Of a stretch of 49,087 bases of DNA, positions 2,496 to 14,839 are shown piece after piece. Both the position numbers and the translations under genes were made by a program. The DNA comes from Candidatus Faecousia faecigallinarum (GTDB lineage Bacteria > Bacillota > Clostridia > Oscillospirales > Oscillospiraceae). Location of the stretch: contig DVHJ01000089.1 in NCBI GenBank assembly GCA_018712145.1, positions 1-49,087 on the forward strand, given 5' to 3'. The notes under the pieces were generated by a model, which had not been told where the DNA came from, did not search any database, and saw only the letters and a program-made list of their open reading frames with translations. Each line of letters opens with the position of its first letter. Position 1 is the stretch's first letter.

Positions 2496-3131
2496 ATGAT
2501 TTCTGCAATCCTGATGTTAAGCAATATGCTCTGTTCCCTGCGGTTAAACAGCGGCAGCTTTCCCAAGCCGCTGTCCCCCACCGAGGAGAAAGCCTACCTG
2601 GAACGTGCCGCTGCCGGTGATCTGGAAGCCCGGAATATCCTCATTGAGCGAAACCTTCGCCTGGTGGCCCACATCATGAAAAAATATTACGCGCAAACGG
2701 CAGATCAGGAAGACTTAATCTCCATTGGCACCATCGGCTTGATCAAAGCCATTTCCACCTTTGATGCAGGTAAGGGCATTCGCCTGGCCACCTATGCTGC
2801 CCGGTGCGTAGAAAATGAAATTCTGATGCACTTCCGCAGCCAACGGAAAAGCGCCTCGGATGTATCTCTGTCGGATTACATTGAGACCGGAAAAGACGGC
2901 ACGCCGCTGTCCCTGATGGACGTGGTCAGCCAGGATGTGGATCTGTTTGAGGAGATCAGCACTCAGGAGGATGTACGCTTGCTAAGCCGGTACATGGATC
3001 AGGTGCTGGACAGCCGGGAACGGCAGGTACTGCGCCTGCGGTATGGCCTGGGCGGCAGGGAGCCCCTTCCCCAGCGGGAAGTGGCTCAGCAATGCGGTGT
3101 CAGCCGGTCGTATGTATCCCGCCGGGGCTAA
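2496..3131 (+). CDS. sigK: RNA polymerase sporulation sigma factor SigK, N-terminal segment (interrupted by skin-like element)
   Basis: Late mother-cell sigma factor, closely similar to Bacillus SigK as I recall that sequence: SFPKPLS then EEK, NLRLVAHIMKKY, DLISIGTIGLIKAI, TYAARCVENEILMHFR, VLRLRYGLGG. The first ~20 residues are hydrophobic (MISAILMLSNMLCSLRL), consistent with a cleavable pro-sequence of the SpoIVFB-processed type. The start is an ATG behind GGGGTGAGG. The host reading frame is intact to codon 206 (tyrosine of SRSYVSR); the remaining residues 207-211 and the TAA at 3129-3131 lie in the inserted element. This removes the end of the region 4.2 recognition helix. The missing 24 residues lie at 7523-7597. 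Joined, they give a 230-aa SigK. The protein as encoded here should not recognise -35 elements until the DNA is rejoined. Confidence 0.95.
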   Translation: MISAILMLSNMLCSLRLNSGSFPKPLSPTEEKAYLERAAAGDLEARNILIERNLRLVAHIMKKYYAQTADQEDLISIGTIGLIKAISTFDAGKGIRLATYAARCVENEILMHFRSQRKSASDVSLSDYIETGKDGTPLSLMDVVSQDVDLFEEISTQEDVRLLSRYMDQVLDSRERQVLRLRYGLGGREPLPQREVAQQCGVSRSYVSRRG

Positions 3132-3138
3132 GGTAAGC
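3112..3138 (+). other. attL: left junction of the sigK element
   Basis: The shared core ATGTATC occupies 3112-3118, with the presumed crossover dinucleotide GT at 3114-3115. From 3116 rightwards the element arm starts ATCCCGCCGGGGCTAAGG and ends at 3138. It is the exact inverted complement of the arm at 7500-7522. The sequence left of the GT is sigK coding sequence. Confidence 0.9.
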
Positions 3139-3157
3139 GGCCAAACGGATCACAAGG

Positions 3158-3205
3158 GGCACCTAGGGCAAATTGCGCGATAGCATGCGGATTCGCCTTA
3201 GGTGC
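3158..3205. repeat. Imperfect inverted repeat near the left end of the element
   Basis: GCACCTAGGGCAAATTGC reads inward and is matched imperfectly by GGATTCGCCTTAGGTGC. It resembles the internal hairpin of the MITE-like repeats further on. Confidence 0.4.
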
Positions 3206-3233
3206 TGTTTTTGTTTAGTGCTTCTGCAAGGAA

Positions 3234-3376
3234 GCGGATTGCCACGCCTCGTCGCCTCAAAGTCCGCCATGCCCTGCTCCGGCCAGAGAACTGGTGGAAA
3301 ACGTCCTTGCTATGCATACACGCTTCCGTCTTTCACCTGTCATTGCGAGAAGCAAAGCGACGGGACAATCCGTTCT
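3234..3376 (+). repeat. 143-bp direct repeat, copy 1
   Basis: It runs from GCGGATTGCCACGCCTCGTC to ACAATCCGTTCT and is repeated at 3588-3730 with the same length and only a few substitutions. It contains the REP-like words GGATTGCC and TGTCATTGCGA. No credible reading frame. Confidence 0.85.
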
Positions 3377-3520
3377 CCCTGCGGCAGCACAAAACAAAAA
3401 GTAATACTTTGGGCGAATACGAAAAGCACGGCGAATTTGCCCTAAGTACTACTGACATGTCAGGTATTTCTGCGAGGAAGCGGATTGCCACACCAGTGTG
3501 CGCACTGGTTCGCAATGACA
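3338..3520. repeat. MITE-like palindromic repeat, 183 bp
   Basis: Perfect 11-bp terminal inverted repeats TGTCATTGCGA (3338-3348) and TCGCAATGACA (3510-3520). Inside, an imperfect hairpin (around 3399-3455, AGTAATACTTTGGGCGAAT against ATTTGCCCTAAGTACT) lies between two REP-like halves. The same layout recurs at 43147-43327. There is no transposase, so mobilisation would have to be in trans. Confidence 0.6.
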
Positions 3521-3587
3521 TGCAGAAGGCGGGGGCGTGGCTATGTTTGTAAGGACGTTTCCGCAATGGACACTCTGGGCAGGGGAC

Positions 3588-3730
3588 GCGGATTGCCACA
3601 CCTCGTCGCCTCAAAGTCCGCCATTCCCTGCTCCGGCCAAAGAACTGGCGGAAAACGTCCTTGCTATGCGTACACGCTTCCGTCTTTCACCTGTCATTGC
3701 GAGGAGCAAAGCGACGGGACAATCCGTTCT
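3588..3730 (+). repeat. 143-bp direct repeat, copy 2
   Basis: Near-identical partner of 3234-3376, same orientation and length, with 211 bp between the two copies. Recombination between them could delete the material between. Confidence 0.85.
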
Positions 3731-3755
3731 TCTTCGGGATAGCCCCAAAAATGCT

Positions 3756-3801
3756 GGGACTGCCACAGCATGATTTTGGAAAATCATGCTGTGGCAGTCC
3801 C
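3756..3801 (-). terminator. Terminator hairpin for the element's regulatory operon
   Basis: A perfect 22-bp inverted repeat with a 2-nt loop (GGGACTGCCACAGCATGATT and its complement), 24 bp after the DUF4367 stop codon. On the minus strand it is followed by AGCATTTTTGG. It is also close enough to perfect to be a repeat relic. Confidence 0.65.
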
Positions 3802-3824
3802 GTATATCCTTTGGCTTGGGCCGA

Positions 3825-4694
3825 CTATGCGCCGCCAAAGTGCGCCACAATTTCGGCCAAAACCGCCTTGGACTCCGCGCCAACTATGCTGACGGTATAT
3901 CCACAATCCGACCATACCCCGGTCCACAGCCCTTTGTTGGAAAACAGATAAAATTCCCGCCCATGGCTGATTAAGGTTTCCGCGTCCCCGGCGTCTTTCT
4001 CATAGAAAGAGGCAGTCACCGCCTCGGGGTACAGATTGGCCTCTATGGTAATTTGCAAGTGGCGGCCGTCCGCTCCAGAAAATGTCAAACGCAGTCCCCT
4101 GGTGGCGAAAGTATCCAATTGCTTCTGTTCAACTAGCTGGTAGCCCTCCGGCAACCACGTTGGCACAAACTCCGTTGGCAGTTCCTGCTGAGTCAATGCC
4201 TGCCGCAACGCCTCATCCGTTTCCGCTGAAGTTGTCGCACCGGGCAGATCCGCCGAATCTTCCCCGCCGGCAGTTGAGAAGCGGAAAATACTGTCCGTCC
4301 AGTGGGCCAAGGTACCAAACACATCCACCCCGGCAGCCTGTGCGGCAACCAACACCAAAAGCGCAATGGCCAAACACGCCGCAATTTGGGTCAACCATCG
4401 AAACCTGCGGGATTTTTGCCGAGCAGCTGCAGGCGCAGCACGGCAGCTAGAATACAATTCCTGCCCCATCCCGTCCGGCGTATTATAATATTGCTCCAGT
4501 TTTTCCAGGGCACGCTGGGTGTCTATCTCCCCGGGCTGCTTTCTCTGCTGCAAGATATCCAGTATGCACTGCACCGTCTCGGTATCCACTTCATCCTCCA
4601 AGCTAAGCAGAAGCATATGCTCCAGCTGAGCCGTCGGCAGCTGTTCAAGCTTGGCCCGGCGCCCGACTTTTGTATCAGCCATGATGAGTATCAT
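3825..4694 (-). CDS. DUF4367-type membrane protein, probable anti-sigma factor
   Basis: About 289 aa. The N-terminal ~100 residues are cytoplasmic and helical (LEQLPTAQLEHMLLLSLEDE), then one membrane helix (IAACLAIALLVLVAAQAAG), then an extracytoplasmic part. The C-terminal part matches DUF4367 in style: PTEFVPTWLPEGYQLVEQ, LQITIEANL, GREFYLFSNKG, a beta-rich fold common in partners of ECF sigma factors. It lies 31 bp downstream of the ECF gene, in the same operon, and ends just before a strong hairpin. Start uncertain: ATG 4694 sits close behind AAAGGGGG, while ATG 4682 (MADTKVGRR) is the alternative. The anti-sigma role is inferred from topology and context. Confidence 0.8.
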   Translation of the reverse strand: MILIMADTKVGRRAKLEQLPTAQLEHMLLLSLEDEVDTETVQCILDILQQRKQPGEIDTQRALEKLEQYYNTPDGMGQELYSSCRAAPAAARQKSRRFRWLTQIAACLAIALLVLVAAQAAGVDVFGTLAHWTDSIFRFSTAGGEDSADLPGATTSAETDEALRQALTQQELPTEFVPTWLPEGYQLVEQKQLDTFATRGLRLTFSGADGRHLQITIEANLYPEAVTASFYEKDAGDAETLISHGREFYLFSNKGLWTGVWSDCGYTVSIVGAESKAVLAEIVAHFGGA

Positions 4695-4725
4695 TTCCCC
4701 CTTTATTGATGCATTTACTATGTAG

Positions 4726-5244
4726 CTATTTGCCTTTTGACCATTCATCCGGAAATGCTTCCCGCAATTTCTGGCGGATGCGCTGCAGCCGCTTCCGGCA
4801 GGCCCAAACCGTAATGCCGAACTTCTCCGCCAATTGCACATATTGCCAATTCTCCATGTAACGGAGCCTCAACAGCTGGTAATCCTCCGGCGGCAGCACC
4901 TGCTGGATGGACAGTAAAAGCAAATGCGTATCGCCGCCCAGAGACATCTGGCTGCCATCCGGCAAATCAACCGGTGTTTCCCGATCATCCAGGGAAATGG
5001 TAGGCCATTCATTTGCCCGAATGCCCCGCAGGTAATTCCCAATTTTGTTCCGCAATACCTGAATTAGCCAACCCTTTGGATTCTCATGCCCCTGAACAAC
5101 CTCAATCCGCACAAAGGCGGTATGGAAGGTATCCATCACCAGGTCTTCTGCCAAATAAGAGTCGTGGAGTATCGACATGGCATACAGGTACAGGGCAGAA
5201 TATTGCGCCTGCACCAGCTGCTGATAAAATTCTTTCGAATTCAT
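4726..5244 (-). CDS. ECF-type RNA polymerase sigma factor
   Basis: 172 aa. Region 2 is seen as LYLYAMSILHDSYLAEDLVMDTFHTAF and NPKGWLIQVLRNKIGNYLR. Region 4 is seen as LPPEDYQLLRLRYMENWQYVQLAEKFG followed by a helix-turn-helix ending KRLQRIRQKLREAF. I choose ATG 5244 because AGGTGG lies 5 nt upstream; GTG 5253 is an in-frame alternative. It sits between a Cro/CI regulator and a DUF4367 membrane protein, a typical sigma/anti-sigma arrangement. Because it is carried by an element expected to leave the mother-cell chromosome, this regulon would be lost there unless the circle persists. Confidence 0.9.
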   Translation of the reverse strand: MNSKEFYQQLVQAQYSALYLYAMSILHDSYLAEDLVMDTFHTAFVRIEVVQGHENPKGWLIQVLRNKIGNYLRGIRANEWPTISLDDRETPVDLPDGSQMSLGGDTHLLLLSIQQVLPPEDYQLLRLRYMENWQYVQLAEKFGITVWACRKRLQRIRQKLREAFPDEWSKGK

Positions 5245-5276
5245 CCAATCCACCTACACATCTTGATATAACCCAT

Positions 5277-5621
5277 TTATCCTTTTTCACCTTTACAGGT
5301 AAAGTGCTCTGTACAGAGGCGAACCATTGCCGCAATGGCTTCCACATATTCTGCGGGCTCGTCCGCCAGCAGCCGCTGGATCGTTGCCATCTGGGAAGCC
5401 GGATCATTTCTAAAAATCAATGCATCGCAGCTAACTTGCAGCGATTTTGCCGCTGCAACCAATGTGCTGATTTTCATCCGCTTCTCTCCCCGCTCTACGC
5501 GGGAAATGAATGCAGGCGTTACATTAATTTTATCGGCAAGCTGGGCTTGTGTCAAGCCCGCTTCTACGCGATATCTGGCCATATTTTCCCCAATTTGTTT
5601 GGCGAGGGCTGCTTCATCCAT
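5277..5621 (-). CDS. Cro/CI-family (XRE) transcriptional regulator
   Basis: 114 aa. The helix-turn-helix lies in residues ~8-62 (ENMARYRVEAGLTQAQLADKINVTPAFISRVERGEKR), followed by a short C-terminal helical region. ATG with AAGGGGA upstream. It is the first gene of the minus-strand operon in the element, divergent from the recombinase genes. It may repress one or both divergent promoters in the 5622-5792 interval. That role is inferred from position. Confidence 0.9.
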   Translation of the reverse strand: MDEAALAKQIGENMARYRVEAGLTQAQLADKINVTPAFISRVERGEKRMKISTLVAAAKSLQVSCDALIFRNDPASQMATIQRLLADEPAEYVEAIAAMVRLCTEHFTCKGEKG

Positions 5622-5659
5622 CGTCCGTGTCCCCTTGGCAATACGTTAATTTTAGTCAC

Positions 5660-5665
5660 ATTATA
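5660..5665 (-). promoter_or_regulatory. -10 box of the element's regulatory operon
   Basis: TATAAT on the minus strand, 39 bp upstream of the XRE start codon. No good -35 at the usual distance (TGTAAT at best), suggesting an activator or weak promoter. Confidence 0.4.
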
Positions 5666-5705
5666 TTGTCCAACGGGAAGAAATTACAGGCACCAGCGGT
5701 GCTAA

Positions 5706-5719
5706 TTTGGTTTACCAAA
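5706..5719. promoter_or_regulatory. Candidate operator in the divergent region
   Basis: Palindrome TTTGGT-TT-ACCAAA between the XRE gene and the recombinase operon, suited in size to a Cro/CI dimer. No experimental or comparative support. Confidence 0.3.
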
Positions 5720-5792
5720 ATTGGATTGCCCCACCTCCGCCGGGATATCCACCCGCCGGCATACATAGATTTAGCGGTAAGGAGGGATATAC

Positions 5793-5924
5793 ATGCCAAA
5801 TTCAGCAATCGAAGTTCACTGTATATTTTCGGACGGCGGCTGCAACATTGCCGGTATTGTGGCGGAGGCATTTCGCCTATACTTGTGTTATACACTGCAG
5901 GAACAGCAATGCACCGGCAACTAG
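5793..5924 (+). CDS. Small 43-aa protein coupled to the recombinase
   Basis: Begins MPNSAIEVHCIFSDGGCN and ends LQEQQCTGN. It has the best ribosome-binding site in the element (AAGGAGG, 8 nt before ATG). Its last 16 nt overlap the recombinase start, so translation of the two is probably coupled. It contains three cysteines near the N-terminal half and a hydrophobic helix AGIVAEAFRLYLCYTL. I recognise no family. A recombination directionality factor or a regulatory ORF is a possibility only. Confidence 0.65.
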   Translation: MPNSAIEVHCIFSDGGCNIAGIVAEAFRLYLCYTLQEQQCTGN

Positions 5925-7510
5925 GAGGCGCATACCAGGCCGCCCTGTATATCCGCCTATCCAAAGAAGACGAGAAAGAAGGGCCGTCGGAAAGCGTCAG
6001 CAATCAGCAGTCTCTATTGGAGGCGTTTGTCCGGCAGCACCAGCTGTCCGTTTACGACACTTATATTGATGACGGATGGAGCGGGACAAATTTTGACCGG
6101 CCGGCATTTCAGCGGATGATCCGAGACATTGAGGCAAAACGGGTTAACTTGGTCATTACCAAGGACCTAAGCCGTCTGGGCAGGGATTACATCCTCACCG
6201 GGCACTACATGGAGCGGTATTTTCCCGAACATGGGGTGCGGTATATTTCCCTGTTGGACGGCATTGACACCGGGGTGGAGTCCACCGCCAACGACATCAC
6301 CCCGTTTCGGGCAATTATGAACGACATGTACGCCAAAGACATCTCTAAGAAGATCAAAAGCGTTAAACGGGATAAGCAGCGCCAGGGATTGTTCATCGGC
6401 GGCAAACCGGTCTACGGCTATCAGATGCATCCCACCGAGAAAAACCGAATTGTGATTGACGAAGGGGCTGCGCCCACGGTGCGCCGCATATTTACCATGG
6501 CGCTGTCCGGAATGAGCTGCCGGCAAATCGCTGCCCAGCTAAACCGGGAGGGCATACCCTCCCCTGCCGCCTACGCTGGGCTGACGGTTTCCCGGCCGGG
6601 CCCACACACCGGGCAGTGGAGCGGCGAGCGAATCTCGGAAATGCTGCAAAATGAAACCTATATCGGCCACATGGTCCAGGGCCGCAGGGTAAAAATCAGC
6701 TATAAGTCCCGGAAATGCCAGCATCAACCCAAGGAAAATTGGGTCGTCGTGACGGGGACCCACCCGCCGCTAATCAGCCAAGAGACGTTTGACCAAGTGG
6801 GAAAGCTGGTGAGCAGCCGGAAACACACCCGCCAGCGGACATATGACTTCCTACTAAAAGGGCTGATTTTCTGCCACGAGTGCGGCTGTCCGCTAGGCGT
6901 GGTAAACCGGAAAAACGCCAAGGGAGAAGACGTACTGTATTTTCTCTGCGGAACTTACCGGCAGTTCACCCAGGCACGGCGTTGCACCAGCCACTGCATC
7001 CAGGTGCAGCGGGTGACCGGCGCAGTCATCGACACGCTGAGCGGGATATGCAGGCCCTGGCTGCAGCCGGAGTGGCTGCTGCCCGCTGCAACGGCGGCGG
7101 CAAAAAACGCCGCCTGTTCCCCCGGCGTACAGCCTGGCCAAATTCAGCGGCTCACTGCCCACCTGGAGCAGCTATACATGGACCGGCTAAACGGCCTGCT
7201 GGCCGAAGGGGATTTTCAGCGCATCTACCGGCGGGTAAGCCGGGAGCGGGAGGCGCTGGAAGCCCGACAGCGTTTTTGGCAGCAATCCTGCAACACCTCT
7301 GCCGGAGAGCGGGCCAAAGCGCTGGTGCAGCAGTTCTTGGACGGCGCTTTGGCCAACCGGCAGCTGCTATGCAGCCTGATCCAGCGGGTGGAGCTGACGG
7401 AAAACAAAACCGTGCTGCTCATCCTCCGGTGCCGGCAGCCAACGGCGGAGGATGGTTTAACCGTCTCGATCCCGCCGGAAAACGGCGGCTCCCCCGGCGG
7501 CTTACCTTAG
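5909..7510 (+). CDS. Large serine recombinase (sigK-element recombinase, SpoIVCA-like)
   Basis: 533 aa. The N-terminal resolvase domain has the catalytic serine S18 in YIRLSKED, plus ESVSNQQ, DDGWSGTNFDRPAF, TKDLSRLGRDYILTGHYMER and NDITPFRAIMNDMYAKDIS. A recombinase domain (GKPVYGYQMHP, VRRIFTMALSGMSCRQIAAQLN) follows. A zinc ribbon starts at C322/C325 (FCHECGCPLG) and closes with later cysteines (LCGTY, RRCTSHCI), then a coiled-coil region with ALEARQRFW. ATG 5909 has only weak AGGA upstream and depends on coupling to the 43-aa ORF. The final codons and TAG (7508-7510) lie within the right attachment arm. It is expected to join attL and attR to rebuild sigK. Similar to clostridial transposon recombinases of the TnpX type as well. 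Confidence 0.93.
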   Translation: MHRQLGGAYQAALYIRLSKEDEKEGPSESVSNQQSLLEAFVRQHQLSVYDTYIDDGWSGTNFDRPAFQRMIRDIEAKRVNLVITKDLSRLGRDYILTGHYMERYFPEHGVRYISLLDGIDTGVESTANDITPFRAIMNDMYAKDISKKIKSVKRDKQRQGLFIGGKPVYGYQMHPTEKNRIVIDEGAAPTVRRIFTMALSGMSCRQIAAQLNREGIPSPAAYAGLTVSRPGPHTGQWSGERISEMLQNETYIGHMVQGRRVKISYKSRKCQHQPKENWVVVTGTHPPLISQETFDQVGKLVSSRKHTRQRTYDFLLKGLIFCHECGCPLGVVNRKNAKGEDVLYFLCGTYRQFTQARRCTSHCIQVQRVTGAVIDTLSGICRPWLQPEWLLPAATAAAKNAACSPGVQPGQIQRLTAHLEQLYMDRLNGLLAEGDFQRIYRRVSREREALEARQRFWQQSCNTSAGERAKALVQQFLDGALANRQLLCSLIQRVELTENKTVLLILRCRQPTAEDGLTVSIPPENGGSPGGLP

Positions 7511-7527
7511 CCCCGGCGGGATGTATC
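7500..7527 (+). other. attR: right junction of the sigK element
   Basis: The element arm GCTTACCTTAGCCCCGGCGG runs to 7522, with the crossover GT at 7523-7524 and the shared core ATGTATC at 7521-7527. From 7523 rightwards the sequence is sigK coding sequence. Confidence 0.9.
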
Positions 7528-7597
7528 GCGCATTGAGAAAAAGGCCCTGGAAAAGCTCCGCAGAGCTTTCCAGGGCGAGGAAAATCCACCGGAATAG
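7523..7597 (+). CDS. sigK: SigK C-terminal segment (24 codons)
   Basis: Reads VSRIEKKALEKLRRAFQG, then EENPPE and TAG, in the phase that follows directly from codon 206 of the left segment. RIEKKALEKL is the conserved end of sigma region 4.2, the recognition helix plus following helix. There is no own start codon or ribosome-binding site, so it is translated only after excision. It ends 6 bp before the convergent DUF1934 stop. Confidence 0.93.
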   Translation, partial: VSRIEKKALEKLRRAFQGEENPPE

Positions 7598-7603
7598 CCG
7601 CCT

Positions 7604-8032
7604 TCACACCGGCTGCGGCGCGACACCGATGGTATACCGCACGGTGCCGGCCAGGGATTGTTCGATTTCCACAGCATACAAAACATCCAGCTTGCCGCCG
7701 TCCTCCGTCATTTCCCAGTGGATTTTCTTGGCGCACACGCCGACCATCAGCGCGCCTACATCCAACTGATACAGAGAATCATGGCGGACGCCCTCGGTAA
7801 ACACCATGCGGGACTGCACCGTACCGGTACGGGCCAGCACTACACTGCCCGGCTGCATCTCAAAGGTGGTCTGGGTTCCCGCCATGCCGGTGAGGCCGCT
7901 TTCCGCATAGGTAATCCGCCAGCCATCGGGCATGCTGTCCAGCACGCCTTCCGTCACCAGCTCGATCACATCCGGCTCTTGGCCGTGATACCGCTGCTCC
8001 CCCCGAATGGTCAACATCACCGGCCGGCTCAT
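7604..8032 (-). CDS. DUF1934 (YwiB-like) beta-barrel protein
   Basis: 142 aa, soluble. Pattern PVMLTIRGEQRYHGQEPDVIELVTEG, then GTQTTFEMQPGSVVLARTG and the MVFTEG box, typical of the DUF1934 calycin-like barrel found in Firmicutes. Its ATG overlaps the ddl stop (ATGA), so the two are translationally coupled. Function unknown. Confidence 0.85.
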   Translation of the reverse strand: MSRPVMLTIRGEQRYHGQEPDVIELVTEGVLDSMPDGWRITYAESGLTGMAGTQTTFEMQPGSVVLARTGTVQSRMVFTEGVRHDSLYQLDVGALMVGVCAKKIHWEMTEDGGKLDVLYAVEIEQSLAGTVRYTIGVAPQPV

Positions 8033-9933: not shown

Positions 9934-10136
9934 GGCAAAAGGCAGACACGCACCTGCGGGTGCAAGGACGTTCTGCCGGGGCAAGTCCGCAGGCGTCTGC
10001 GCATATGCCTGGGCGCCGTTTATTTTTCTATGCAATTCACCATTTCAGCAAATGGCTATTCGGAAACTTGTGCAAGAAAGCTCTTTACCAAACCGTTTTC
10101 TTTGGGAAAATTGTTGCACAAATCCCCACTTTGCTC

Positions 10137-10166
10137 TTGACAGGCGGAATCCGGTTGTGTTACTCT
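10137..10166 (+). promoter_or_regulatory. Promoter of the glycine-cleavage operon
   Basis: TTGACA at 10137-10142, 18-bp spacer, TACTCT at 10161-10166, about 50 bp before the riboswitch. Confidence 0.55.
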
Positions 10167-10214
10167 ACAGGCGAAGGCTGGCGCTTTGCCTGCCGGATAA
10201 TTCCATAGTGATCG

Positions 10215-10382
10215 GATGAGTGGCCCGGGAGAGTCCGCCTGTCCAGGCGGCGCCGAAGGGGAACGCAAAAGCTCTCAGGCAAAAGGGCCGGGCCATGACG
10301 ATACTCCGAAAAGCGCGGTTTTCCGCGCGCCGAAGGTGCAACCTGGCGGCCGCCAGGGAATCTCTCAGGTTTCAAAACGGAG
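10215..10382 (+). promoter_or_regulatory. Tandem glycine riboswitch
   Basis: Two aptamers in series. Aptamer 1: CCCGGGAGAG, GCCGAAGGGG, then GCTCTCAGGCAAAAGGG (10227-10290). Aptamer 2: ATACTCCG, GCGCGCCGAAGGTGCAACC, AATCTCTCAGG, closed by ACGGAG (10301-10382). These are the conserved cores of the glycine class. It precedes the glycine cleavage genes and is followed at once by an intrinsic terminator, so glycine is expected to switch transcription on. Confidence 0.93.
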
Positions 10383-13522: not shown

Positions 13523-14839
13523 ATGGGAAGCTATGTGCCCGCCACACCGGCGGAACAGCAGGAAATGCTGGGGGCCATTGGCCTCCAGCATTTCCGGGAG
13601 CTGTACCGGGATGTGCCGGAGGAAATGTACCTGCACCGGCCCCTGGACATCCCCCCTGGCATGAGCGAGCTGGAAGTGAGCCGGAGCTTACAGGCCATGG
13701 CGGAGAAAAACAAAGTCTTTTCCACCATCCTTCGGGGCGCCGGCGCCTATGACCACTACATCCCCAGCATCGTCAAGTACATCCCCGCCAAGGAGGAATT
13801 CCTCACCGCCTACACCCCCTATCAGGCGGAGATCAGCCAGGGCCTGCTCCAATCGATTTTTGAATACCAGACCATGATCTGCCAGCTCACCGGTATGGAC
13901 GTGTCCAACGCCTCGGTGTACGACGGAGCTACCGCCGCGGCGGAAGCCGCCGCCATGTGCCGGGACCGGAAGCGCCGGGTGACCCTGGTCTCCGCCGCCG
14001 CCCATCCCGATACCATCAACACCATCGCCACCTATTGCTATGGCACCGGCGACGAAATGCGGCTGGTCCCGGCCAAGGATGGGAAAACCGATTTGGACGC
14101 CCTCCGGCAATTGCTCACCGGGGACGTGGCCTCCCTCTACCTGCAGCAGCCCAACTTCTTCGGGCAGTTTGAGGATGCCCAGGCAGCCAGCCAGCTGGTC
14201 CATGAGGCGGGGGCCATGGTGATCCTGGGGTGCAACCCCATTGCCCTGGCCATCACCAAGACCCCTCGGGCGCTGGGGGCGGATGTGGCGGTGGGTGAGG
14301 GACAGCCCCTGGGCCTGCCTCTGGGCTACGGCGGCCCTTACCTGGGCTATATGGCCACCACCAGCAAGCACATGCGGAAGCTCCCCGGCCGCATTGTGGG
14401 GCAAACCCTGGACAAAAACGGAAAAACCGCCTACGTTCTATCCCTCCAAGCCCGGGAGCAGCACATCCGCCGGGAAAAGGCCAGCAGCAACATCTGCTCC
14501 AACGAAGCCCTGTGCGCCCTGACCGCCAGCGTTTACTTGGCCGCCATGGGGCCCCAGGGGTTGGCGGAGGTTGCCCGGCAGTCCATGGCCAAGGCCCATT
14601 ACCTGGCCAAGGGGCTGTGCGCCATTGATGGGGTGACCCTGCGGTATACCGGCCCCTTCTTCCACGAATTCCTCACGGATCTGCCCCGGCTGGACCAGGT
14701 GCTGGCCGCCCTGGAGCAGGCCGGTATCCTAGGCGGCTTGCCGGTGGACGGGGGCATTTTGTGGTGCGCCACGGAAAAGGCCACCAAGGCGGCCATGGAT
14801 CAGGCCATTGCCATTGTGAAGGAGGTGCTGGCCCAATGA
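13523..14839 (+). CDS. gcvPA: Glycine dehydrogenase (decarboxylating) subunit 1
   Basis: 438 aa. First half of the split P protein: the family start YVPATPAEQQEMLGAIG, PPGMSELEVSRSLQAMA, FLTAYTPYQAEISQG, QTMICQLTGMDVSNASVYDG and LGYGGPYLGYMA. It pairs with GcvPB to decarboxylate glycine with PLP. 4 bp after gcvH; its stop overlaps the gcvPB start (ATGA). Confidence 0.97.
   Translation: MGSYVPATPAEQQEMLGAIGLQHFRELYRDVPEEMYLHRPLDIPPGMSELEVSRSLQAMAEKNKVFSTILRGAGAYDHYIPSIVKYIPAKEEFLTAYTPYQAEISQGLLQSIFEYQTMICQLTGMDVSNASVYDGATAAAEAAAMCRDRKRRVTLVSAAAHPDTINTIATYCYGTGDEMRLVPAKDGKTDLDALRQLLTGDVASLYLQQPNFFGQFEDAQAASQLVHEAGAMVILGCNPIALAITKTPRALGADVAVGEGQPLGLPLGYGGPYLGYMATTSKHMRKLPGRIVGQTLDKNGKTAYVLSLQAREQHIRREKASSNICSNEALCALTASVYLAAMGPQGLAEVARQSMAKAHYLAKGLCAIDGVTLRYTGPFFHEFLTDLPRLDQVLAALEQAGILGGLPVDGGILWCATEKATKAAMDQAIAIVKEVLAQ

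Follow-up and report, generated by a model that had tools for sequence, protein, structure and literature searches.

A compact serine-recombinase element splits sigK of Candidatus Faecousia faecigallinarum at one of three recurring, site-specific insertion points

That a gene may be interrupted by mobile DNA and made whole again during sporulation is well known, from the skin element of Bacillus subtilis and from other gene-intervening elements, and in principle the arrangement described here is not new. skin is a 48-kb serine recombinase element in sigK whose removal restores the gene in frame. Here we describe a far smaller element of this kind, 4.4 kb in length, that splits sigK in a 49,087-nucleotide stretch of contig DVHJ01000089.1 of Candidatus Faecousia faecigallinarum (assembly GCA_018712145.1), a member of the Oscillospirales; this whole stretch is referred to as the window.

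Several described systems resemble it in part. The C. difficile skin has a large serine recombinase of the same domain build; its directionality factor, CD1234, is driven by sigma-E and SpoIIID, and CD1231 has a sigma-A promoter (PMC5025042). In the B. cereus group different insertions occupy sigK at two positions in different strains, carry cargo such as restriction-modification and measure 22 kb (island IV), 38 kb (AH820) and 39 kb (J7/J62) (PMC10745906). The elements gin in gerE, SP-beta in spsM and phi3T in kamA are likewise gene-intervening and excised in sporulation, but from other target genes; gin has non-phage cargo, and spsM forms of 4–20 kb exist (PMC5595907, PMC6957869). Alicyclobacillus phage MMB025 and phages of C. 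tetani and C. perfringens integrate into sigK itself, and the descriptions of MMB025 and of the C. tetani phage include inverted repeats or att (attachment) sites plus a recombinase (PMC13141910, PMC5553647); these, however, are phage genomes, and the MMB025 integrase is 23% identical to the recombinase found at one of the sites below (site II). In the open-licence literature we found no report of several sigK elements within one gene, nor of recombinase families each tied to one of three sigK positions throughout an order, and none that places sigK elements in gut Oscillospirales; the excerpt of PMC12946183 contains nothing on sigK.

In the window, sigK starts at position 2496 and is interrupted after codon 208 by an element of 4,409 bp, as measured from GT centre to GT centre of its two ends. 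The unexcised left open reading frame (ORF; 2496–3131) encodes 211 amino acids and ends SRSYVSRRG-stop, and the missing end of the gene lies at 7521–7597, directly 3′ of a large serine recombinase gene (5909–7510) with Resolvase, Recombinase and Zn-ribbon domains, each scoring over its cut-off. Joined at the ATGTATC common to both parts, the pieces form an in-frame SigK ORF of 230 amino acids, uninterrupted by a stop and terminating in VSRIEKKALEKLRRAFQGEENPPE. An earlier note on this DNA had proposed the split, the in-frame rejoining at this heptamer and a missing end some 4.4 kb away behind a serine recombinase, and all of this is borne out. It had also named a second intact sigK among the observations that would refute a programmed excision: in the draft genome (1.9 Mb, 97 contigs, 98% complete), searched with the joined protein, none was found, and the next match, at 46% identity, is another sigma factor, probably sigE. 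The left part scores 264 bits against the NCBIfam SigK model NF004471 (cut-off 252) and 257 against the SigK equivalog TIGR02846, under the cut-off of 299, a score that may be compatible with a protein lacking its end. The left ORF loses just the end of what we take to be region 4.2, and is therefore not an early truncation; the interruption presumably falls within the −35 recognition helix of that region.

The ends of the element have the form of attachment sites. Beyond the shared core they form a 27-nt inverted repeat, complementary at 26 of 27 positions and spaced by 4,353 nt; the longer inverted pairs (30 nt) listed for 2900–7700 are merely 70–77% complementary. A 7-bp core together with arms that agree at 26 of 27 positions thus matches beyond chance. 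Large serine recombinases act on distinct attP and attB sites. Laid together, the element ends give a near-palindromic attP around GT (29 of 40 positions symmetric), and the restored attB is weakly symmetric (10 of 40). TATGTAT with a similar arm is present in 14 relatives listed.

Related insertions are common in the genus. A sample of 136 genomes (probably Faecousia) was searched with the joined protein, with junction sequences and with recombinase loci. A hand tally gave 65 full-length sigK matches, 49 split genes and 22 genomes left without a call, either because the contig ended or because no piece of sigK passed the threshold. Genes were called split when they end or begin at any of three points that recur; every one of the 49 rests on at least one junction that was read, though not always on both. 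Site I, between HIM-K-K and KYY at about codon 62, is filled in 22 genomes, a count that includes the doubtful G147, where an uninterrupted copy of the same stretch is also present; site II, between ENE and ILM at about codon 110, in 27 (G086 and G024 with an atypical left junction); and site III, between SYV and SRIEK at codon 208, in 16, the window's included. G029 is counted by its right junction (L105), and its N-terminal match (L104), which lacks a site I junction, was not used. The skin recombination site AATGA of B. subtilis also occurs in the site II core of these genomes (PMC10745906); the window element, in contrast, occupies site III. Equating island IV of Bcbva with site I was considered and dropped: ‘position 195’ and ‘position 423’ in the excerpt (PMC10745906) misfit the expected codon numbering.

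At least two sites are filled in 15 genomes (I and II in 10, I and III in two, II and III in three). Both lie on a single contig in, for example, G139 (L056), G129 (L054), G019 (L088), G147 (L077), G142 (L067), G062 (L068) and G145 (L096, L097), so binning is no explanation for those genomes. In G366, of the same family, a single contig holds sigK residues 5–63, 56–114 and 105–209 in this order, separated by site I and site II recombinases; the third piece ends in a site III junction, and residues 203–229 lie on another contig, adjoining a site III recombinase, which makes four pieces and three elements in all. The site II recombinase of this genome (L369, 3070–4384) is cut to residues 1–325, directly before attR and the sigK piece, and this element may be stuck, unable to excise by itself. 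Up to three sites are thus filled at once here, whereas the excerpt on the B. cereus group describes one insertion per genome (PMC10745906). Outside the genus, 20 of 23 genomes of the order, one from each of 23 other families, match sigK over most of its length, and the remaining three have just a weaker match of the sigE kind. Among 80 named records fetched by sigK similarity, a sample that favours long matches, 72 are uninterrupted and eight end at codon 209. Two loci are unusual at site I: contig C24 of G152 (L101) carries the N-terminal piece twice (10067–10255 and 14538–14726, 4.5 kb apart), both copies ending in the site I junction, and in a Papillibacter sp. record (L203, 1–2182) the complete sigK is immediately preceded by a shortened site I recombinase, which may be what is left of an element since lost.

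Each site has its own recombinases. The window's recombinase shares about 65% identity with others of site III and just 20–26% with those of sites I and II. In the genus the site III family is found at 63% identity or more in 15 of 136 genomes, after which there is nothing above 40% (E 1e-60). Of these 15, 14 lie next to a site III piece of sigK; beside the family member of G135 no sigK piece was seen in the DNA examined. For three of the 16 site III genomes (G103, G016 and G003), whose sigK pieces end near contig ends, no site III recombinase was found. Across 394 genomes of the order (E 1e-120 for sites III and II, 1e-150 for site I) there are 21 homologues from 16 genera for site III, 10 from eight genera for site I and 27 from 23 genera for site II, of which 20, nine and 25, respectively, adjoin a sigK piece at their own site; the four exceptions are among the least similar homologues (41–47%). 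The 20 for site III include the window's genome and L297, counted by an att core at a contig end alone; among the 25 for site II are G001, a member of the genus, and G366 with its cut recombinase.

Several pairs of genomes have recombinases that are 97–98% identical and sigK DNA, on the same contig, that is 68–77% identical. For site I, the G129 and G145 recombinases share 97.8% of amino acids, and sigK codons 112–207 are 68.1% identical in DNA; the figures are 98.1% and 74.0% for site II (G158/G001) and 98.5% and 70.0% for site III (G129/G019). Counter-cases exist: G129/G139 (site III, 97.0%) with sigK at 87.8%, and G129/G150 (site I, 97.5%) with sigK at 82.9%. Near-identical recombinases beside divergent sigK on the same contig argue that the elements move, since vertical descent hardly explains such pairs. 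To the extent that DNA sequence can tell, then, the split gene, its att sites, an intact recombinase, site specificity across the order and horizontal spread are all in evidence. A 98% copy of the window recombinase in the protein collections stands for 95 member sequences. Members of this recombinase family at 67–69% identity are also on record for Flavonifractor sp. An100 and for Dysosmobacter sp., the latter perhaps a metagenome assembly.

The orientation of the site III recombinase varies: it converges on the 5′ part of sigK in seven of nine genus loci, and lies beside the 3′ part in the window, in G091 and in most loci of the order. Four IMG/VR contigs (L281, L282, L283 and L289) carry four to five tandem serine recombinase genes, of which the final one belongs to the site III family; in L283 it is followed by a 3′ piece of sigK, and in the other three the DNA ends there. 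In many site II elements (L108, L110 and others) the recombinase ORF ends ...GEDSK and takes its stop, TGA, from the sigK core AATGA, so that excision would alter the C-terminus of the recombinase.

Selection on the split gene was judged from hand-picked pairs, several of which share genomes. Between G062 and G020, each with elements at sites I and II, 136 codons show 29 synonymous changes and one nonsynonymous change, a ratio of nonsynonymous to synonymous rates (dN/dS) of 0.009; this pair was aligned anew with an anchor after a misalignment, and G062/G142 was redone over 42 codons only. Eight other split/split pairs gave 0.049–0.084 in seven cases and 0.181 in G091/G101, whose alignment offset is unchecked, compared with 0.087–0.119 for three intact pairs and 0.078–0.136 for two mixed pairs (dS is above 1 in seven of 13). 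As read from these alignments, split sigK is under purifying selection in the relatives. The sporulation gene spoIVA is present in 127 of the 136 genus genomes, in 40 of 40 near-complete ones and in the window genome.

The start of the recombinase gene is repeatedly overlapped or closely preceded by a small ORF, found in eight of nine genus loci at site III and in 11 of 14 at site I. The ninth site III locus (L047) yielded its small ORF to a family search, which returned 35 rows in 44 site III loci (some overlapping); the three outstanding site I loci comprise two cut by contig ends (L060, L062) and one with a small ORF by eye (L058). An alignment of 26 site III small proteins shows a single invariant Cys and, after a VVHC.Y core, the sequence ESFRLFL. 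The position recalls that of B. subtilis Skr, a protein of 64 amino acids whose gene overlaps that of the recombinase by 101 nt (PMC6957869). In C. difficile, by contrast, CD1234 is a separate gene, whereas the small ORF and recombinase of the window look like one unit.

A promoter-like motif accompanies the small ORF. In 24 of 27 deduplicated site III loci (L286, L309 and L284 are without it) CATANNNT occurs at −45 to −25, a range chosen with the motif already known, against a mean of 0.6 and a maximum of 4 in 2000 shuffles and 22 of 716 control ORFs (3%); eight of the 35 rows were dropped from this test, seven as near-duplicates or the window's own copy and one as too short. Upstream of CATANNNT lies a GCAA block, at 16–17 nt in 15 of the 24 and at 21 nt in one (shuffles: mean 3.0, maximum 9); it often reads GGACAGGCAA, which resembles the SpoIIID box. 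At site I, CATANNNT stands shortly before the small ORF in 12 loci (by eye and without a control; six groups by likeness). Both the small ORF and its −10 motif are conserved. spoIVA is a sigma-E gene in B. subtilis, and in the genus CATANNNT lies within 90 nt before spoIVA in all 11 readable loci of 20 fetched (at −58 or −59 in eight), a set that was read without a shuffle control and does not include the window genome's locus. CATACCAT or CATACCCT accounts for seven of the 11 spoIVA motifs, and CATACCAT recurs in five near-identical site III loci, one after deduplication. The sigma-E sequence at spoIIID of C. difficile is ATA-N16-CATATATA (PMC3789822); the sigK promoter of the clade, by eye, reads GGAC..GAATANNNT.

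We consider it likely that the window element, mobile and specific to its site, is timed to exit from sigK in the mother cell, thereby restoring the gene. The large serine recombinase that carries it belongs to a family almost confined to codon 208 of sigK. Recombination between attL and attR, with crossover at GT, would release a circle with a palindromic attP and, in the same event, restore the host attB and hence sigK exactly in frame. The 43-amino-acid ORF, in the position of Skr, is probably the directionality factor that permits excision, and, with a sigma-E-like promoter in front of this ORF, excision would be confined to the mother cell, which does not survive. The spore would keep the element: kept in the spore and excised in a dying cell, it would therefore be inherited without a cost to the sporulation of its host. 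Excision itself, the role of the small ORF and the timing are what we infer; the layout, the att sites, the recombinase, the sole sigK, purifying selection in relatives and the sigma-E-like promoter support a skin-type element, and from the comparative evidence a decayed or accidental insertion appears unlikely. The skin-like layout put forward in the earlier note is thus supported by the anatomy, although the note overlooked that the element belongs to one of three site-specific mobile families; its remark on small size holds against the 48 kb of skin, but the spsM forms of 4–20 kb (PMC6957869) provide a precedent.

A simpler account would have an integrated mobile element use conserved sigK codons as a landing site with no developmental timing, leaving at random or never, so that its carriers would sporulate poorly or not at all. 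That elements move between species agrees with this, as do broken parts such as the site II recombinase of G366 and the failure to find an excised form in protein clusters, viral contigs or mixed genomes; we nevertheless think it improbable, given purifying selection on split sigK in the pairs tested, a −10 motif that stands ahead of the small ORF in 24 of 27 loci but of only 3% of control ORFs, and the retention of spoIVA. Much less probable still is that the host has lost sporulation and that the element is a passenger in a decaying sigK. Most record-matched genomes are metagenome-assembled, their sporulation unseen, and the 22 genus genomes without a callable sigK would suit such a loss; yet the window sigK joins in frame with no stop, spoIVA is in the window genome and dN/dS is low in split pairs. 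Fusion of unrelated contigs within sigK, for which a draft of 97 contigs might give cause, is scarcely credible in the face of two matching att half-sites, the same layout in other assemblies and interrupted protein clusters a few residues different from the window's.

Several observations nonetheless weigh against timed excision. The joined sigK of the window's own species is not among the protein clusters listed (best 120 of 6,900), although clustering at 90% identity could hide a joined member inside one. Among the matches listed, the four closest clusters are 97–100% identical over 91% of the query and all end at the interruption (the tail of cluster P0124 differs from the other interrupted clusters); the next proteins in the best 120 are uninterrupted and 83–85% identical. 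A site III attP pattern, built from relatives and not covering the window's arms, had no match in viral contigs. A site II 18-mer occurred there in three places, with terminator-like flanks and no sigK or window-recombinase match. Excised and integrated forms side by side seemed at hand in G065, G089 and G132, and were rejected: the uninterrupted and split DNA differ (75% identity over 45 nt, 81% over 48 and 71% over 149, respectively), and the sequences look like those of co-binned relatives rather than two states of one locus. None of the dN/dS pairs compares the species of the window with a sister that carries this insertion. The small ORF family has no Pfam, NCBIfam or PDB match (PDB up to E 1); at site II a candidate small ORF was found in five of 17 loci, four of them alike (MAHSAV...), and several site II recombinases have, by eye, a sigma-A-like TTGACT/TATAAT promoter, as CD1231 does in C. 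difficile (PMC5025042). As for the promoter, beyond the retrospective choice of its range, the window copy lacks the GCAA block carried by 16 of 24 loci, and CATA precedes sigK in nine of 51 cases, within reach of shuffles (mean 4.9, maximum 12), so that the sigK promoter of the clade does not share this −10.

The features of the split locus are collected in Table 1. No phage structural or replication gene was recognised by Pfam or NCBIfam in the window element (PHROGs not searched), unlike skin, and a prophage was rejected on the lack of structural genes in these searches. A direct repeat of 147 nt, 95% identical (3230–3376 and 3584–3730), lies between attL and the minus-strand genes.

Table 1. 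Coordinates of features at the split sigK locus (positions in the window)
Feature	Position	Strand	Remarks
sigK 5′ part	2496–3118	+	codons 1 to 208, attL core at end; unexcised ORF reaches 3131
attL	3112–3142		core ATGTATC 3112–3118; predicted crossover GT 3114–3115; inner arm 3116–3142
Hairpin, perfect 22 nt, then T run on minus strand	3756–3801	−	probable terminator of minus-strand genes
Anti-sigma-like protein	3825–4691	−	weak DUF4367 match, below cut-off; start uncertain, open frame to 4841
ECF-type sigma factor	4726–5253	−	Pfam, NCBIfam
XRE/Cro-type helix-turn-helix regulator	5277–5621	−	NCBIfam matches, some phage repressors, all below cut-off
Sigma-E-like promoter candidate	5743–5771	+	GGATATC, 14 nt, CATAGATT; putative −10 is the family-wide motif, −35 by eye
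43-amino-acid ORF, candidate recombination directionality factor	5793–5924	+	16-nt overlap with recombinase start
Large serine recombinase, 533 amino acids	5909–7510	+	Resolvase, Recombinase, Zn-ribbon
attR	7496–7527		inner arm 7496–7522; core ATGTATC 7521–7527; predicted crossover GT 7523–7524
sigK 3′ part	7521–7597	+	VSRIEKKALEKLRRAFQGEENPPE + stop

Cargo and size differ among elements. The site I element of G139 encodes ABC-type transporter permeases and GH94 and GH1 enzymes. At site III, G091 carries KwaA, KwaB, a GajA/AriA-type AAA ATPase and a tyrosine integrase, G028 a DUF4143 ATPase, and G019 a tyrosine integrase and a nucleotidyltransferase. Genus site III elements with both ends on one contig measure about 3.8 kb (G028), 5.3 kb (G129, G019), 9.5 kb (G091) and about 16.6 kb (G134). 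On contig C1 of G273 a site I junction lies at 259.7 kb (L371) and a site III recombinase at 361.9 kb (L372); the site III element of this genome may be about 100 kb.

For the order as a whole we lean, with modest confidence, towards seeing sigK of the Oscillospirales as a shared developmental landing gene for three stackable mobile families, each excised on a mother-cell schedule, with the spore as germline and the mother cell as soma. Recombinase families of low mutual similarity would each own one codon position, bringing cargo for sugar use, phage defence or a sigma/anti-sigma pair, with up to three elements per gene. If this is true, sigK in two to four pieces is assembled by DNA excision, with a logic comparable to that of the internal eliminated sequences of ciliates, and a gene in three or four pieces would make sporulation need two or three recombination events in one cell. 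The published sigK elements that we found are isolated cases, each within one species group, and may serve either the host or themselves; a clade in which 49 of 136 genomes have a split sigK and 65 an uninterrupted one, with three families and horizontal movement, allows gain, loss, stacking and fitness to be compared directly. Each recombinase, taken with its small ORF and its short att sites, may also represent a new set for directional recombination that comes with its target built in.

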